In this document: one piece after another, positions 366 through 7,089 of the stretch
Layout: every line of letters starts with the position of its first letter
Numbering within the stretch: the stretch's first letter is position 1
Assembly (NCBI GenBank): GCA_026981855.1
Contig: JALSIB010000056.1
Span: 1 to 36,973, forward strand
Direction of reading: 5' to 3'
DNA from: Methylothermaceae bacterium
GTDB taxonomy: Bacteria; Pseudomonadota; Gammaproteobacteria; Methylococcales; Methylothermaceae
Length of the DNA stretch: 36,973 bases
The notes under the pieces: model-generated
Told to the model about the DNA's origin: nothing
The model's database searches: none
Seen by the model: the letters and a program-made list of their open reading frames with translations, nothing else
Program-made: the position numbers and the translations under genes

Positions 366-701
366 TCACCTCTTCGGATATACAGTAATCAAGCGGGGTT
401 TGCTCTCACCAGCCCTCACAATCCAGACGGTTACCACATCATGTGATACACCAGACCGGGACATTAGCTTGCCCTCAACAACATACTTTATTCCATAATT
501 CGTCTCTTCCGACTTCGTTACGTTTCCTTGGCGCAATATCCGATCAACATCTTCGGCCAAAGCTTTCCAATTCTGGCGGGAATAGCCTAATCCATAGAAA
601 AACTTCGCCTTGAACTTTCCGATTGGGTGTTCATGAGCCAACAAGTAATCACGTATTTTCTCGACTGGGATAACTCCTTTGTCACGGCCAGGGATTTCCA
701 T
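366..701 (-). CDS. DUF6883 domain protein (cassette 6, first gene)
   Basis: A 111-residue protein resembling the DUF6883 family: an N-terminal VIPVEKIRDYLLAHEHPIGK segment, then KAKFFYGLGY, a helix with LAEDVDRILRQ, and C-terminal beta strands including DVVTVWIVR and PRLITVYP. The layout (short helix followed by a strand-rich end with conserved basic residues) resembles small toxin-like proteins, though no catalytic site can be assigned with confidence. ATG at 701 is preceded by GTGGAAAT. It is the first gene after the attC at 719-789, which is the position expected of a cassette gene. The DUF4926 gene follows immediately. The function is unknown. Confidence 0.75.
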   Translation of the reverse strand: MEIPGRDKGVIPVEKIRDYLLAHEHPIGKFKAKFFYGLGYSRQNWKALAEDVDRILRQGNVTKSEETNYGIKYVVEGKLMSRSGVSHDVVTVWIVRAGESKPRLITVYPKR

Positions 702-718
702 GGATTATTTCCACGTAT

Positions 719-789
719 TGCTAACGTTAAGCTCACCTGCCGCTATGCAGCACAGCGGAATAGCGGTCAGGTGGAGCGCTTTGTTGGGC
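719..789 (-). repeat. attC site of cassette 5 (about 71 bp)
   Basis: On the minus strand it begins GCCCAAC (789-783, a perfect RYYYAAC core) and ends in AAC|GTTA at 725-722. The interior holds inverted arms CACCTGACCGC and GCGGCAGGTG, which fold the bottom strand into the usual attC hairpin. It follows the stop codon of the HEPN gene (793) by 3 bases. The arms match those of the site at 3657-3728. Confidence 0.85.
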
Positions 790-792
790 GTA

Positions 793-1491
793 TTATCTAA
801 TTGCGCAAAACATTCCTTTCCACCAACTTGCAAAAACTCCGTCGGTTTCAACGCAAAAGTTTTTTACTATTCGTATCATATCTTTAATTTCTGAAGGTGT
901 TTTGGTTGCGGACGGATCTCCATGTGCTATCCTGTTTCTAATCTCAACTAAATGCTCTATCATATTTTTAGTATACTGAAAGTTCGCCGCCAACTTTGAT
1001 GCCAAGTCACGTTGATAAGTATCGTATCCAAAACGATTAAAATATGATTTAATTTGTTTAAATGCTGGATTAGAGAACCCTTTATTAAACATTTCAGCTG
1101 GCACTGAAGCCGGAAAAGAACCATCACGAGACCAAAACTCTATATCGTTTGCCAGAAAAGAAAAAATTTTATCCCCGATTGCACCTGGGTCTGATGTGTC
1201 TTTTATTTCGTCTATGTAATTTTTAGATATATGATAAAAAAACCTTGAACATATCTCTTTTCTGGGGACCGATTTTTCATATAAGGAGTCTATAGCGAGT
1301 TCCCCAAGTTCTTTTATATATGCCTCCAAATGTCCAGAAAGAAGAACCACCGAAGCCCTACATAGTGCACTGATTTCAGAGCCATTATTGACAGGATCTT
1401 GCTTTTCCTTTTCTAAGGCAAACCTGCGTAGCAGTTCTACCTCCTCCAACCTTTCCACAAAGGAAGAGTAAGCTGCAGTATACCGAGCCAT
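793..1491 (-). CDS. HEPN-like nuclease, MAE_28990/MAE_18760 family (cassette 5, second gene)
   Basis: A 232-residue, mostly helical protein. The segment EIRNRIAHGD holds the HEPN ribonuclease signature R185-x4-H190 with the polar N186 after the arginine. The N-terminal part has the LSGHLEAYIKEL helix typical of this HEPN family. HEPN proteins of this type are usually RNases in toxin-antitoxin or anti-phage modules. The start ATG (1491) overlaps the last base of the upstream DUF262 gene (TAATG), so the two are translationally coupled and travel in one cassette. The stop lies 3 bases before the attC core. The family assignment is from recognised motifs; nuclease activity is inferred. Confidence 0.8.
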   Translation of the reverse strand: MARYTAAYSSFVERLEEVELLRRFALEKEKQDPVNNGSEISALCRASVVLLSGHLEAYIKELGELAIDSLYEKSVPRKEICSRFFYHISKNYIDEIKDTSDPGAIGDKIFSFLANDIEFWSRDGSFPASVPAEMFNKGFSNPAFKQIKSYFNRFGYDTYQRDLASKLAANFQYTKNMIEHLVEIRNRIAHGDPSATKTPSEIKDMIRIVKNFCVETDGVFASWWKGMFCAIR

Positions 1492-2579
1492 TACAGAATT
1501 CCTTCGAATGCCTCATCCCACATTTGAAATCTGCGCTTAGTTCTTTTTGTGTGATCAACTGACCTACTTATAAGGTCTTGAAACTCCTCGTTCGCCAATA
1601 ATTCATTATAGGCATTTCTGAATCTATCTTTGGTTTGTAATGCGATTTCTGGTGTAACGCTAGCGGCATGAAACGCAACAAGATCATAAAGCGCGCGATT
1701 TATAGATTTTGATCCTTCACGCCTATAACATTCTTGAGGCTCAAACCATGTCAGCGAGCACCGTAAGGCGTTGTTCCAAATATCATGTAACTCAGCAATC
1801 TTATTCTGCGGATATTTCATTCCCTCTTTAGCCACGGCATTCAGCCAATGTTTCAATGGTGTACGATACGACTCTAAGCCGGATAATTGAAATGCAAAAA
1901 ATCTTAGCACCAGCTCTTCGTCTCTCATTCTTTTGTCTGGTGTTTTTTTACCTAATATACTTAGCCAATCTTTATTGTTAACGGCTTCTTTGAGCAGGTC
2001 ATTTAGCGCACCGCGATAAATGCAGTTTCTCAATTCTTGAGAGTTTAAAGGAACCGTATTTGTGTTTAGTCTTTCAAATACATCAAACTTGACTTCTGGG
2101 TGCGATTCATTTGTAACTAGCATACATCTCAGGGTATGCGTTTTTAATCGACGTTGAAGCTTGTTCGGAATTGCATGAAACCTTTTGCCATTAAGCTCTG
2201 TTAACACCTCAAGGCCCTTTAATGGAAATTGATTATCAATGAATCTATATATTGAGAACAATCTCTGCTGACCATCAATGACATCCAATTCAAATTCTTC
2301 GTTTTGCGATAGATAACACGGAGGGATGGGCACATTTAGAAAAATCGACTCTATCAACCGAGAAGCTAAAATGTCAGTCCACACATACCTGCGCTGAAAA
2401 TCAGGGCGTTCAGATAATGGCCTAAGAAAGATTGTTCCAGCACGTATTTGATCGATTAGGGAATCTATCGCAAGATCATAAGGCTGCGTTACAACCTTTC
2501 GTTCCCGAATAGGTACCTCATCGGGATCTGGCGCATCCGACTCTCGATCTTTTTCATAAATTGGCTTGTCATCAATCAT
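1491..2579 (-). CDS. DUF262 domain protein (cassette 5, first gene)
   Basis: A 362-residue protein with DUF262 hallmarks: RPDFQRRYVW (58-67), the invariant DGQQR (102-106), and FERLNTN followed by LNSQELRN (168-185). DUF262 is a ParB/Srx-like fold found in GmrSD-type modification-dependent nucleases and other defence proteins, where DGQQR belongs to the nucleotide-binding or hydrolytic site. There is no C-terminal DUF1524 HNH domain here; the partner HEPN gene may supply the nuclease. ATG at 2579 was chosen; a TTG at 2597 is possible but has a poor ribosome site. At about 1.1 kb this makes a large cassette. The combination looks like a two-gene anti-phage or toxin module. Confidence 0.85.
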   Translation of the reverse strand: MIDDKPIYEKDRESDAPDPDEVPIRERKVVTQPYDLAIDSLIDQIRAGTIFLRPLSERPDFQRRYVWTDILASRLIESIFLNVPIPPCYLSQNEEFELDVIDGQQRLFSIYRFIDNQFPLKGLEVLTELNGKRFHAIPNKLQRRLKTHTLRCMLVTNESHPEVKFDVFERLNTNTVPLNSQELRNCIYRGALNDLLKEAVNNKDWLSILGKKTPDKRMRDEELVLRFFAFQLSGLESYRTPLKHWLNAVAKEGMKYPQNKIAELHDIWNNALRCSLTWFEPQECYRREGSKSINRALYDLVAFHAASVTPEIALQTKDRFRNAYNELLANEEFQDLISRSVDHTKRTKRRFQMWDEAFEGIL

Positions 2580-2613
2580 GGCGTTGATATACCTCAATCC
2601 AGTCTTATGCTAC

Positions 2614-2669
2614 GCCCAACGATGAGCTCAGCCGCCGCGTTAGCGGTCGGCTGAAGCGACTTGTTAAGT
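2614..2669 (-). repeat. attC site of cassette 4 (56 bp)
   Basis: On the minus strand it runs from ACTTAAC (2669-2663) to GTTGGGC (2620-2614, a perfect GTTRRRY core). The inverted arms GCTTCAGCCGACCGC and GCGGCGGCTGAGC form the stem. A 38-base interior stretch is identical to that of the attC at 4153-4208, so the two cassettes share an attC lineage. Confidence 0.88.
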
Positions 2670-2801
2670 GTTTGCACAATGGGCAGCAAACAGCACAGGG
2701 CCAATGCCGCCCCATTTACTCATTTTAGAATATTGCACACAATCTGCTACTGGGGTTCCTCGCACTGAACGGCCATTCGAGGCCGCACAGTTTGATTTCA
2801 T
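2664..2801 (-). CDS. Possible 45-residue cassette protein (cassette 4)
   Basis: This ATG-started frame on the cassette strand gives 45 residues beginning MKSNCAASNGRSVRG and ending AAHCANT. Its TAA stop lies within the attC core, exactly as in cassettes 1 and 3, which is the main argument that it is real. Shine-Dalgarno support is weak. Another frame on the same strand is open without an ATG from about 3012 to about 2711, and a plus-strand frame (2668-2919, GTG start) also exists. No homology is recognised. Roughly 2802-3047 carries no convincing gene, so this may be a decayed or non-coding cassette. Confidence 0.3.
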   Translation of the reverse strand: MKSNCAASNGRSVRGTPVADCVQYSKMSKWGGIGPVLFAAHCANT

Positions 2802-3047
2802 TCTTGAATGGGCCTGCTTGATGCCAACATCCTGGAAAATAACTTATTCGATGACGCAAACGGCGTTTAGCGGACAGAGGCTGATTTTTGATTCCCCGCA
2901 CCAAGCGGCTTCTGATTAGACCAGCGGCATCGGCTTTTCCCTTACCCTGATAGAAACCACCCTCCTTGCACGCACCTTGTTCGGTTGCCGGGATGCCGAC
3001 AAACAGTCAGCGGCAATATTCAATCAAAGAAGAAAACGAAGTTTTCC

Positions 3048-3119
3048 ACTTAACGACAAAGCTGTGCGGCGCAAACGAAGCGCAGCGTAGTTTGCGTCCG
3101 AACGAGCGCCTTGTTATGA
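3048..3119 (-). repeat. attC site of cassette 3 (72 bp)
   Basis: On the minus strand it begins TCATAAC (3119-3113) and ends GTTAAGT (3054-3048). Arms GCGCTCGTTCGGACGCAAAC and GTTTGCGCCGCACAGC pair imperfectly. This is a different sequence type from the other four sites. The TAA stop of the MltR-like gene lies in its first core. Confidence 0.8.
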
Positions 3120-3632
3120 ATCATTTTGATCATCTCCTTGCAGGTGAATGTATTCATTAGTCAGTTCAGGTCGTTTCCACTTTATTACCTCTAAATCTCT
3201 GTATAAAAGAGGAGGGACAGTATTCTGCGCCATATGCAGGAAAGAATCTCTGGCTATCATTCCCCAATCTTCAACGATAGGCCTGCATATTTTTTCAATT
3301 TTTGGGTGATCGAAACCAGCAGAAATCTCGTGAGCAAATACATTCCTAACTTGGCGTATGGCATCAATCTTTTTTACTTCATCTTTTGTAATAAGGCCCA
3401 TTACAAAGGCGGCTTTGGTTTTTCCTGACAATGAGCCGAATGGCGCATAAGGCCCTTCAAATAATTCTTTTACATTTTTTGAATCAATCAAGAATGACTC
3501 AATGATCCTACGTAGGCACTCTTCTATGTGGGCAGCTATTATAAGCGTAATGCCGCGATCACTTTCGTCCACGGAGTGCTCCATAGTGGCGAGCAACTCT
3601 TTGGCCCTCTCCATTTGTATATCTTCCGACAT
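3114..3632 (-). CDS. MltR-like protein (cassette 3)
   Basis: A 172-residue helical protein of the MltR family, whose type member is the mannitol operon repressor. The characteristic block LSGKTKAAFVMGLI (68-81) is followed by KIDAIRQVRNVFAHE (88-102). The stretch R96-N-x-x-A-H101 has the R-x4-H form of HEPN ribonucleases, so the protein could be a nuclease or RNA-binding protein rather than a sugar regulator. ATG at 3632 has GGAGA upstream at 5-6 bases. It is a single-gene cassette whose stop overlaps the attC core. No mannitol genes are nearby, so a role in mannitol control is unlikely here. Confidence 0.75.
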   Translation of the reverse strand: MSEDIQMERAKELLATMEHSVDESDRGITLIIAAHIEECLRRIIESFLIDSKNVKELFEGPYAPFGSLSGKTKAAFVMGLITKDEVKKIDAIRQVRNVFAHEISAGFDHPKIEKICRPIVEDWGMIARDSFLHMAQNTVPPLLYRDLEVIKWKRPELTNEYIHLQGDDQNDS

Positions 3633-3656
3633 CAAGTCTCCAAAAGTGCTACTGAT

Positions 3657-3728
3657 TCATAACGTTAAGCTCACCTGCCGCGGTGGAGCGCCAGCGGAAC
3701 CGCGGTCAGGTGAAGCAAATTGTTAGCA
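3657..3728 (-). repeat. attC site of cassette 2 (72 bp)
   Basis: On the minus strand it runs from TGCTAAC (3728-3722) to AAC|GTTATGA (3663-3657 core). Arms TTCACCTGACCGCGG and CCGCGGCAGGTGAGC form a strong stem with a GC-rich apical part. It shares its arms with the site at 719-789. Confidence 0.87.
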
Positions 3729-3776
3729 GGTACGAATGATTTTATTACGTTTCACATGGTGTACATGTACAAGATT

Positions 3777-4139
3777 TCATGGTTTACCATCAAACTCTTT
3801 GCCACATTTGTTACATTTAAACCGAACCATTGATTCATCTATTTTTTCTCCTACTTTATTTCCTATTACCGCACCACCGGAAGCACCAGCCAAAGCACCT
3901 AAGACAGCCCCTGCAACACCTCCTATTGTAGCCCCAGCCGCAGCTCCTATAGGACCCCCAATTAATCCAACTGTTGCCCCCAACTCAGCTCCTGCTGTTG
4001 CACCAGCAGATACACCTACAGCACCCGCCACACCTCCTGCCACAGCCCCAACACCAGTACCTACTTTTTCAGCAGTATTTTTCAATACAACAAACTCTGA
4101 TGTTTTACATTCTGGACATTTTGGCCTTTTGCCACTCAT
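3777..4139 (-). CDS. Glycine-zipper protein inserted in a split zinc ribbon (cassette 2)
   Basis: A 120-residue protein. Residues 8-11 are CPEC and 109-112 are CNKC, two zinc-knuckle halves that together would make one zinc ribbon. Between them, residues 27-97 are almost only Gly, Ala, Val, Ile, Thr and Ser, with repeated GxxxG spacing (glycine zipper), a form that inserts in or associates with membranes. A ribbon closed by a membrane hairpin would place both ends on the cytoplasmic face. The start ATG (4139) is preceded by AGGGG. It is the sole gene of its cassette. The exact function is unknown; a membrane-acting small toxin or stress protein is possible but only inferred. Confidence 0.75.
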   Translation of the reverse strand: MSGKRPKCPECKTSEFVVLKNTAEKVGTGVGAVAGGVAGAVGVSAGATAGAELGATVGLIGGPIGAAAGATIGGVAGAVLGALAGASGGAVIGNKVGEKIDESMVRFKCNKCGKEFDGKP

Positions 4140-4152
4140 TTTTTACCCCTTT

Positions 4153-4208
4153 TGCTAACGATGAGCTCAGCCGCCGCGTTAGCGGTCGGCTGAAGCGTAT
4201 TGTTAGAT
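4153..4208 (-). repeat. attC site of cassette 1 (56 bp)
   Basis: On the minus strand it runs from ATCTAAC (4208-4202) to GTTAGCA (4159-4153). Its interior is the same 38 bases as in the site at 2614-2669. The TAA of the cassette 1 gene (4205-4203) is inside the first core. Confidence 0.88.
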
Positions 4209-4669: not shown

Positions 4670-4740
4670 ATCTAACAGTTAAATAGACGAAACACGTCAT
4701 TCTAATACTAGACGAATTTCGTCTATTCATCTATCATTCC
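4670..4740 (-). other. attI recombination site and intergenic control region
   Basis: The cassette 1 junction is GTTAGAT on the minus strand (4676-4670), complementary in form to the last attC core. Between it and intI lie an 8-base word TAGACGAA at 4684-4691, again at 4709-4716, and its inverted copy TTCGTCTA at 4718-4725, one base further on. Such direct and inverted repeats could be integrase-binding sites of attI or an operator controlling intI and the cassette promoter. No LexA-type CTG-N10-CAG box is seen. A cassette promoter must read leftward from here or from within intI, but I see only a weak TAGAAT box on the minus strand. Confidence 0.6.
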
Positions 4741-4744
4741 GATC

Positions 4745-6139
4745 ATGAGCGAAAATATCATACCCATCAGTTCCCGTGCAACCCAGAAATCCCACTACTC
4801 CAACTGGCAGCGTTACTTGAATCTGCTTGATCAAAGGGGGGTTCCGGAGAAATGCAGGCGCTGGTATGTCAGTCATGTCGAGGAGCTGATCACCGCTTTT
4901 GACGGACGTAATTTGAAGAGTATCTCATGTGGTGAACTCACTGGATACCTTCGTAAACTGATCAGCTCGTCCGGCATCCCTGGCTGGATACTGCGGCAGA
5001 AGGTGGACGCCATCCGGCTCCTTCTGGTCGATCTGGTTCAAAGCAGGCATGCATTGGAAGTGGAGTGGAACTATTGGGCAGAGGCGGTGGTGGATGCACT
5101 TCCCCGGCAACATCCCGCCACCGCCCGTGAAACCTCCCCTGAAAGGGTGGTCCGATACCGAACCGACAGTGTTTCCGACCCCGCTTCCCGTGCGGAAGTG
5201 GTCAAAATGATCCGGATACTAAGGACCCAGCATTACTCCATCCGCACGGAAGCGGCCTATCGTGACTGGGTGCTGCGGTTTCTCTCCTTCACGGAAAAAT
5301 CCACGGCGGAGTTGGGTTCTGAGGACGTCAACGCCTTCCTCACCTATCTCGCCGTGGAAAGGCAGGTATCCAGCAGCACCCAGCGTCAGGCATTGAATGC
5401 ATTGAGCTTTTTCTTCAAACACGTGCTGGAGCGGGAATTGTCTCTGCAGGAGGGTTTCCGTCCCGCCAAACGCACGCGGCGCCTGCCGGTGGTTTTGAGC
5501 CGTGAGGAGGTCAAGCGTCTGCTGAACCGGCTGGAAGGCACCCACCATTTGATGGCAGGCCTTTTGTATGGAACCGGGATGCGGCTGATGGAACTGGTGC
5601 GCCTTCGGGTTCAGGACATTGATTTTGCACGTCAGCTGATCGTGGTTCACGATGGCAAAGGTCGCAAGGACCGGGTAGTCCCCTTGCCACAAACGTATAC
5701 CGATTCCCTCCGCGACCACCTGGCGCAGCGCCGCCGGCTTTTCCTCTCAGACTGTCAGGCGGGGCCGGTGCATGTCTTTCTGCCCGATGCCCTGGCACGC
5801 AAGTATTCCAATGCCTCATCCGAATGGATATGGCAGTATGTGTTCGCATCGGCGCGCATATCCCAAGATCCCCGCTCCGGCCAGCGGCGCCGTCACCACA
5901 TCCACGAGCGCACCCTGCAGGTGGCCATTTCGCGGGCGGCGAAGGAGGCCGGTATCCCCAAACGGGTCAACTGCCATGCCCTGCGCCATTCCTTCGCCAC
6001 CCATCTGCTGGAAGCCGGTTACGACATCCGCACGGTGCAGGAACTGCTGGGCCATGCCGATGTCTCCACCACCATGATCTATACCCATGTGCTCAACAAA
6101 CCCGGCTTGCCGCCGGTTGTCAGCCCGGCGGATTTCTGA
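4745..6139 (+). CDS. intI: Integron integrase with extended N-terminus
   Basis: A tyrosine recombinase of 464 residues. Catalytic residues are all present: R280 (GMRLMEL), K305 (DGKGRKDR), H411 and R414 (HALRHSF), H437 (LLGHADV) and nucleophile Y446 (MIYTHV). The IntI-specific patch is present at 346-385 (LPDALARKY, SSEWIWQYVF, DPRSGQRRRHH), which separates integron integrases from XerC/D. The usual core-binding domain is at about 150-235. Residues 1-130 are extra compared with the typical 320-340 residue IntI, and look like a second SAM-like DNA-binding domain (RRWYVSHVEELI, ELTGYLRKLI). ATG 4745 lacks an obvious Shine-Dalgarno. It excises and inserts cassettes at attC/attI. Confidence 0.95.
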   Translation: MSENIIPISSRATQKSHYSNWQRYLNLLDQRGVPEKCRRWYVSHVEELITAFDGRNLKSISCGELTGYLRKLISSSGIPGWILRQKVDAIRLLLVDLVQSRHALEVEWNYWAEAVVDALPRQHPATARETSPERVVRYRTDSVSDPASRAEVVKMIRILRTQHYSIRTEAAYRDWVLRFLSFTEKSTAELGSEDVNAFLTYLAVERQVSSSTQRQALNALSFFFKHVLERELSLQEGFRPAKRTRRLPVVLSREEVKRLLNRLEGTHHLMAGLLYGTGMRLMELVRLRVQDIDFARQLIVVHDGKGRKDRVVPLPQTYTDSLRDHLAQRRRLFLSDCQAGPVHVFLPDALARKYSNASSEWIWQYVFASARISQDPRSGQRRRHHIHERTLQVAISRAAKEAGIPKRVNCHALRHSFATHLLEAGYDIRTVQELLGHADVSTTMIYTHVLNKPGLPPVVSPADF

Positions 6140-6141
6140 CG

Positions 6142-7089
6142 ATGGACGATCTTCTGAGCTGCACCGTGCCCGCCAGGTTGGCCGGCCTGCGGCTTGACCA
6201 AGCGTTGGCCGAGCTGTTTCCCGACTACTCCCGCAACCGCCTGCAACAGTGGATCAGGCAGGGGCGCGTGACGGTGGACGGGGCCGTTCTGCGCCCCCGT
6301 GACAAACTGCGGGGTGGGGAATGGGTCGAGTTGAACGCGGTTGAAGAAACGCGGGCCGATCATACCGCCCAGGATATTCCCCTGCGGGTCGTATTCGAGG
6401 ACGACCACCTGCTGGTGATCGACAAACCGGCGGGAATGGTCGTCCATCCCGCCGCCGGCCACCACGACGGTACCCTCCTGAACGCCTTGTTGTTCCACCT
6501 CCCGGCGCTGGAGTCGTTGCCCCGCGCCGGCATCGTGCATCGGCTGGACAAGGAAACCAGCGGCTTGCTGGTGGTCGCCAAAACCCTCAAGGCGCACAAG
6601 AGCCTGGTGGAGCAGCTTCAGGCCCGCACCGTCAGGCGCGAGTATCTGGCCCTGGCGCAGGGGGCGATGATCACCGGCGGGACGGTGGATGCGCCGATCG
6701 GCCGCCATCCCACCGACCGCAAGCGTTTTGCGGTCACGCCGACGGGCAAGGAAGCGATCACCCATTACCGGGTGGTGGAACGCTTCCCGCATCACACCGT
6801 GGTGCGGGTTCGGCTGGAAACCGGCCGCACCCACCAGATCCGGGTGCACATGGCCTATCTTCGTTTCCCATTGGTGGGCGATCCACAATACGGACGCTTG
6901 CGTCTGCCGCCCGACGCCGGTCCGGAGCTGACCGAAGCCTTGCGCAGTTTCAAGCGTCAGGCATTGCATGCCGCCAGGCTCGCGCTTCTCCACCCGGAGA
7001 GCGGCCGCGAACTCCAGTGGCAGAGCCCTTTGCCTGAAGATTTCACCTTGCTGCTGGAGAGTCTGCGCAAGGCGGCCAGCGGAAAATGA
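6142..7089 (+). CDS. rluD: 23S rRNA pseudouridine(1911/1915/1917) synthase
   Basis: A 315-residue protein with an N-terminal S4 RNA-binding domain (about 14-60) and an RluA-family catalytic domain. The motif GIVHRLDKETSGLL carries the catalytic Asp136, and GRTHQIRVHM is present near 235. RluD modifies helix 69 of 23S rRNA and supports ribosome assembly. Its ATG is 2 bases after the intI stop codon, so it is likely co-transcribed with the integrase or has a promoter inside intI. The usual neighbours of rluD (bamD, pgeF) are not here, so the integron probably lies at a rearranged site. It converges on tatD with 4 bases between. Confidence 0.93.
   Translation: MDDLLSCTVPARLAGLRLDQALAELFPDYSRNRLQQWIRQGRVTVDGAVLRPRDKLRGGEWVELNAVEETRADHTAQDIPLRVVFEDDHLLVIDKPAGMVVHPAAGHHDGTLLNALLFHLPALESLPRAGIVHRLDKETSGLLVVAKTLKAHKSLVEQLQARTVRREYLALAQGAMITGGTVDAPIGRHPTDRKRFAVTPTGKEAITHYRVVERFPHHTVVRVRLETGRTHQIRVHMAYLRFPLVGDPQYGRLRLPPDAGPELTEALRSFKRQALHAARLALLHPESGRELQWQSPLPEDFTLLLESLRKAASGK

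Follow-up and report, generated by a model that had tools for sequence, protein, structure and literature searches.

An integron integrase with a second core-binding-type domain at its N-terminus and the attI layout associated with it

The DNA analyzed here, a complete contig of 36,973 nucleotides from a Methylothermaceae bacterium (JALSIB010000056.1; hereafter the window), contains an integron integrase gene, intI, beside a divergently oriented cassette array, in which five attC-like repeats lie within positions 753-4204 and the cassette ORFs are on the minus strand (Table 1). Because the window is the whole contig, the array may continue past its left edge. The cassette genes include a DUF6883-family gene (366-701, minus strand), and a C-terminal-looking stretch similar to it was found upstream of intI in locus L011. 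Another part of the cassette array (793-2597, minus strand) encodes a GmrSD-type protein, for which PADLOC reported NsnA (E 2.3e-88) and PD-T4-2_A (E 2.4e-45), and an adjoining RiboL-PSP-HEPN protein. Judged from their sequences, the two could represent an anti-phage defense pair residing in the integron array. On the other side, the gene of an S4-domain pseudouridine synthase starts 2 nt past the end of intI (6139-7089, plus strand), and because of this short gap the two genes may be co-transcribed. A similar gene follows intI in L010 and a different one in L012 and L013.

Table 1. Features of the integron in the window, with the evidence for each assignment.
Feature	Position	Strand	Basis
intI, integron integrase, 464 aa, with N-terminal extension	4745..6139	+	ORF; TIGR02249
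Extra core-binding-type (SAM-like) domain, residues ~19-113	4799..5083	+	hhalign, fold model, VIA-align, dN/dS
Linker, ~40 residues	5084..5203	+	alignment of extensions (A3)
Usual IntI core-binding (CB) domain, residues 155-232	5207..5440	+	Pfam SAM_4, E 1.6e-29
Catalytic domain, residues 250-450	5492..6094	+	Pfam Phage_integrase, E 3.6e-42
Distal inverted pair of attI half-sites, TAGACGAA-A-TTCGTCTA	4709..4725	-	sequence and relatives
Proximal attI half-site, TTCGTCTA	4684..4691	-	sequence and relatives
Inferred attI crossover TGTT (TG/TT), start of first cassette	4674..4677	-	sequence; aligned TGTT in relatives
Part of first attC-like site	4172..4204	-	repeat family D2
Part of attC-like site	3692..3724	-	repeat family D2
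Part of attC-like site	3083..3115	-	repeat family D2
Part of attC-like site	2633..2665	-	repeat family D2
Part of attC-like site	753..785	-	repeat family D2

The match of the IntI protein to the integron integrase family TIGR02249 covers residues 157-463 and passes the curated cut-off (435.3 bits, cut-off 265). About 150 residues precede this usual part, comprising a domain of ~95 residues and a linker of ~40 residues. An earlier note on this DNA had described an integron integrase with an N-terminal extension, and an added domain, a linker and a complete IntI are indeed present. As the end of the added stretch, the position given there, 5140, is roughly correct, but the domain that folds stops near 5083. 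Across 32 extended IntIs the linker varies between 27 and 66 residues (40 in the window protein), and alignment A3 shows conservation of an H-A/P-T-x-A-R-like stretch around residues 123-128. In an alignment of these 32 proteins, R280, K308, H411, R414, H437 and Y446 are invariant and residues 346-369 show good conservation, which agrees with the previous claim of intact catalytic residues and an intact IntI patch if, as we assume, these are the positions of the two in the window protein.

The extension is homologous to the CB (SAM-like) domain of IntI itself, as judged by profile comparison, predicted fold and HMM searches. Pfam SAM_4 matched 29 of 36 extensions (best E 8.5e-8; E 0.1 for the extension of the window). 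Alignment of a profile of the 36 extensions with a profile of 30 CB domains by hhalign gave a probability of 95.7% over 77 columns, whereas the controls reached at most 2.9% (60 column-shuffled profiles), 0.4% (reversed profile) and 1.0% (five catalytic-domain pieces). At E ≤0.01, the extension profile matched the CB domains of 138 out of 143 IntIs (100/102 short and 38/41 extended ones) but matched none of four further tyrosine-recombinase ORFs identified in the window's genome, which disfavors a fusion with a foreign domain. Among solved structures, the top two matches of the profile, both weak, were the CB domain of lambda Int (2oxo, E 0.017) and VchIntIA. Because the predicted fold of the full-length protein was poor (mean pLDDT 53), the extra domain was folded alone, from four sequences only, which yielded four helices with a pLDDT of 80 and a pTM of 0.74. 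Comparison of this model by VIA-align ranked VchIntIA first (Z 10.9, 101 residues, 3.3 Å), followed by XerA (Z 10.7), with lambda 1z19 at Z 7.5; since Z values below ~13 may reflect an arrangement common in helical bundles, we relied on the ranking and not on Z alone. Rows 1-26 were occupied by integrases and recombinases, except for a phage regulator at row 26, and subsequent rows fell to 4.6. Foldseek returned weak matches (best E 0.56). The invariant Q85 and the near-invariant A89 of the extra domain align with conserved residues in the last helix of the CB domain, and with a mean net charge of +2.1 compared to +7.0 in 32 proteins the extra domain is less basic than the CB domain. The proposal that the extension resembles a second SAM-like domain, for which structure prediction had been suggested as a check, was correct, and the domain that it matches is IntI's own CB domain. 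We conclude that the CB domain of IntI was duplicated, with the qualification that gain of the domain from another IntI would look alike.

The extension is under purifying selection in the one measurable pair, L012/L013, where dN/dS is 0.09 in the extension, compared with 0.173 in the CB domain and 0.154 across the whole core; this is the only close pair, and in the other nine pairs silent sites were too diverged for a firm ratio. Among the nine other genomes of the genus, four encode the extension and IntI as one protein, in open frames of 469-479 codons and with ~50% identity to the window.

In the class as a whole, the narrow extension profile A1 matched 48 of 369 genomes, including some fragments or broken copies, while an IntI above the curated cut-off was present in 138 of the 369. 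The wider profile A3 also matches ordinary IntI CB domains, and its raw counts (34/398 and 106/301) are not counts of extensions. Strong matches outside the class were obtained in three genomes (L181-L183), in one of which (L182) the frame is broken. A single one out of 72,556 plasmid records carried the extension, on a plasmid of Candidatus Thiodictyon syntrophicum, where the annotation gives the relative as a full-length integron integrase of 454 residues. No relatives of the extension were found in viral contigs and phage records with the queries used. In a tree of 143 IntI cores, the kind of phylogeny that had been suggested as a check, 42 labelled as extended and 101 short ones were split by one branch (SH-aLRT 97). 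This was a quick, unrooted tree that does not tell gain from loss of the extension, and its loci were the best-scoring and hand-picked ones and not a random sample. It contains 143 out of 150 IntI ORFs: four were omitted for short coverage of the core, one of them also being a copy, and L069, L091 and L124 were removed as unclear, either for lack of an extension match in a long frame or for a frame cut at the contig end. Two of the extended labels rest on weak matches at contig ends, namely L092 and L093, the latter relabelled as extended on a partial match with E 1e-4. Before this relabelling, a tree with an outgroup required two changes. The earlier note had set this protein against IntIs of usual length, but the extension is no peculiarity of this one protein: within its own clade, the side of the tree with the 42 extended cores, it is not unusual, and longer IntIs were already reported in 2008 (PMC2426708).

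The region between intI and the first cassette has a distinctive organization, which came to light as a half-site repeated ahead of intI in members of the genus. Reading along the minus strand of the window, the proximal half-site is followed by six bases and then by the crossover TGTT, in which we take the cleavage point, between TG and TT, from other integrons. The full layout combines this half-site, placed 6 nt from the crossover, with an inverted pair of it at a further distance of 25-26 bp (4684-4725 in the window), and in the window the palindrome ends 20 bp ahead of the intI start codon. In relatives, the half-site is mostly TCTGTCTA plus its inverse; the window contains no copy of the corresponding TAGRCAGA motif because its half-site is a variant. 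Of 36 extended loci, 22 contained this motif (6.4 expected), compared with 14 of 97 short ones (15.5 expected), and at least three copies were present in 12/36 versus 0/97. When direct repeats were scanned over spacings of 5-60, extended loci had spacing 25 in 13/36 and spacing 26 in 10/36 cases (1.6 expected each), whereas the strongest spacing in 95 short loci was 34 (11 loci, 4.3 expected), with no peak at 25/26. A layout score of at least 15 was reached by 18/36 extended and 0/95 short loci, and the layout beat nearly all shuffles in 23/36 versus 4/95; on the same score, 13/36 extended loci were not above 1 in 30 shuffles. Anchoring the layout at the crossover gave at least 12 of 16 in 18/36 extended versus 1/95 short loci, and at least 11 of 16 in 19/36 versus 4/95, three of the four short sites being very AT-rich. 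Overall, about half to two thirds of the tested extended IntIs have the distinctive layout. Inverted repeats were enriched in extended and short loci alike in the scan of all spacings, and repeats as such were about equally frequent (12/36 extended and 24/95 short loci), so repeat content alone was rejected as a distinguishing mark.

The motif, the layout and the anchored layout were all defined after the extended loci had been viewed, a choice that the scan of all spacings, the use of new loci and a search for inverted pairs with no spacing imposed were meant to offset. Among 12 previously unused loci, 8 passed at p ≤0.02, including all three from outside the class, and 4 failed. Bases beside the crossover allowed anchoring of 25 of 37 extended loci. 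In these 25 sites the proximal half-site resembled its own distal pair more than the distal pairs of others (12.12 versus 10.43 of 16; 0/5000 shuffles), and the best inverted pair, searched without imposed spacing, had its inner copy 39-41 nt from the crossover in 20/25, while its distance to the intI start ranged from 4 to 134 nt. The half-sites thus vary together and hold their place relative to the crossover and not relative to the intI start. For these comparisons, L173 was excluded as a copy of L013, as was L085 (run of N) where filtered, two short-IntI loci were dropped for length or N to leave 95, and intI start codons were chosen by rule. L079, L081 and L082 form an extended subgroup with a diverged extension, whose attI seemingly has more half-site copies; in L079 and L082 the best inverted pair was found at 64 nt.

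Most likely, the extra domain touches one of the attI half-sites. In such an arrangement, one protomer would place its usual CB and catalytic domains on the core site and its N-terminal domain on an accessory half-site, and the additional DNA contact at attI could steer cassette insertion to this site and shape the synapse. Accessory sites with a comparable role are known as the arm sites of lambda integrase and have been proposed for the direct repeats of attI1. We give about even credence to the specific reading of the window protein as a tandem two-CB integrase in which the extra domain contacts an accessory half-site of attI and thereby steers insertion. The CB homology, the selection on the extension, the single split in the tree and an attI layout confined largely to extended loci argue for it. 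On the other side, the extension and the attI layout part on one and the same branch of the tree, so that the evidence for their link comes from one evolutionary event; partial correlations in Mantel tests of half-site divergence against individual domains were near zero; the extra domain has the lower net charge; repeats as such are about as frequent in short loci; and about a third to half of the extended loci lack the layout. The distinctive attI of the extended clade lends support to the earlier expectation that the extension alters attI recognition, although as a correlation that depends on one split of the IntI tree.

The main rival reading assigns the extra domain a role in protein-protein contacts, be it for synapsis, cooperativity or recruitment, and has the half-sites bound by the ordinary CB and catalytic domains of further IntI protomers. 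The low net charge of the domain would fit such a role, the core site recognized by the usual CB domain probably includes or borders the half-site adjoining the crossover, and IntI1, which has no extension, binds the attI1 direct repeats, according to the accessible parts of two reports (PMC8191803; PMC8946536). However, the CB fold has been kept, together with the residues Q85 and A89 that correspond to conserved positions in the last CB helix, and the attI layout is rare or absent among short IntIs, so that we regard this reading as rather unlikely. Improbable is a third possibility, that the extension is a leftover of the duplication with little function. Some extension copies are broken or truncated, and intI pseudogenes are described as common in the available text of PMC2426708, but the low dN/dS, the conservation of the extension within the class and in three genomes beyond it, and the absence of any loss among the 42 rows on the extended side of the tree, some of which carry weak contig-end labels, speak against it. 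That the palindrome serves as an operator for IntI or a repressor at the intI promoter, as its position close to the start codon in the window might suggest, is quite improbable in view of the fixed distance to the crossover and the variable distance to the intI start. Translation from an internal codon, such as the in-frame ATG at 5207 with its preceding GGAAG stretch or a start near 5180, which was named in the earlier note as the finding that would speak against an extended protein, is very unlikely because of the purifying selection on the extension, and is further contradicted as the sole start by amino-acid conservation upstream of 5207, by the presence of any Met in this stretch in merely 11 of 32 relatives and by the full-length annotation of the Thiodictyon relative.

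Extending the contact reading to the whole group, we tentatively consider, with the balance somewhat against it, that the IntIs of an old clade, one not confined to a single class of Pseudomonadota, are bivalent, combining a duplicated CB domain with a composite attI, where one half-site sequence is recognized both at the crossover and in the distal inverted pair. If this were true, chromosomal integrons would possess an inherent means of targeting attI and of ordering the synapse. A naturally occurring clade in which the CB domain is doubled and the accessory sites keep a fixed layout offers a direct test system for attI recombination, and the half-site pattern may help to place attI sites in a large group of chromosomal integrons.

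In comparison with IntI1 and VchIntIA, the window IntI has the same catalytic and CB domains (TIGR02249) and the same context of attI and attC array, but ~150 more N-terminal residues with a second CB-type domain and a different attI layout. The arm-binding domain of lambda integrase has a fold that differs from the CB type. The window protein would resemble the lambda system if the extra domain binds the distal sites, but its extension is all-helical and matches CB domains instead of the lambda arm-binding fold. Like the class 1 attI1 with DR1 and DR2, the window attI has accessory repeats beside the core site, as far as attI1 is covered in the accessible parts of PMC8946536 and PMC8191803. 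However, attI1 has two direct accessory repeats, whereas the attI of the window has an inverted distal pair and a direct proximal copy, so that the attI1 layout is not the one found here, and unlike in attI1 the accessory layout is conserved over a wide clade of chromosomal integrons. Additional length in IntI proteins has been known before: one group inside clade 15, which is deltaproteobacterial, comprises IntIs that are on average ~120 aa longer, which was attributed to a single and possibly functional gene fusion (Nemergut 2008; PMC2426708). The window IntI, with ~150 residues before its TIGR02249 match, is similar to these proteins in its length and in the group-wide sharing of the addition; the accessible part of that paper names neither the fused domain nor an attI. 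The accessible parts of PMC3414803 and PMC3108266 contain nothing on IntI extensions. Among the open-licence papers retrieved, considered at the level of titles and abstract openings, none named the extra domain or the attI layout. The nature of the domain and its attI partner thus apparently have not been described.

Several loci depart from the standard arrangement of an extension fused to a complete IntI. Extension-coding stretches without a complete IntI behind them occur in L014, L018, L035, L036, L044, L045 and L048 and represent remnants or separate genes; in L018 the extension runs into a tail that seems to resemble the terminal part of a specificity subunit of type I restriction systems. 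The genomes G834, G858, G867, G907 and G909 have frames of 493-534 codons that match the extension profile only weakly, and in L091 an IntI-like frame, 511 codons long and still open where the contig ends, gave no extension match; these proteins perhaps carry a second, unrelated N-terminal addition. In L207, the frame of the extended intI is reported to be open for 1570 codons.
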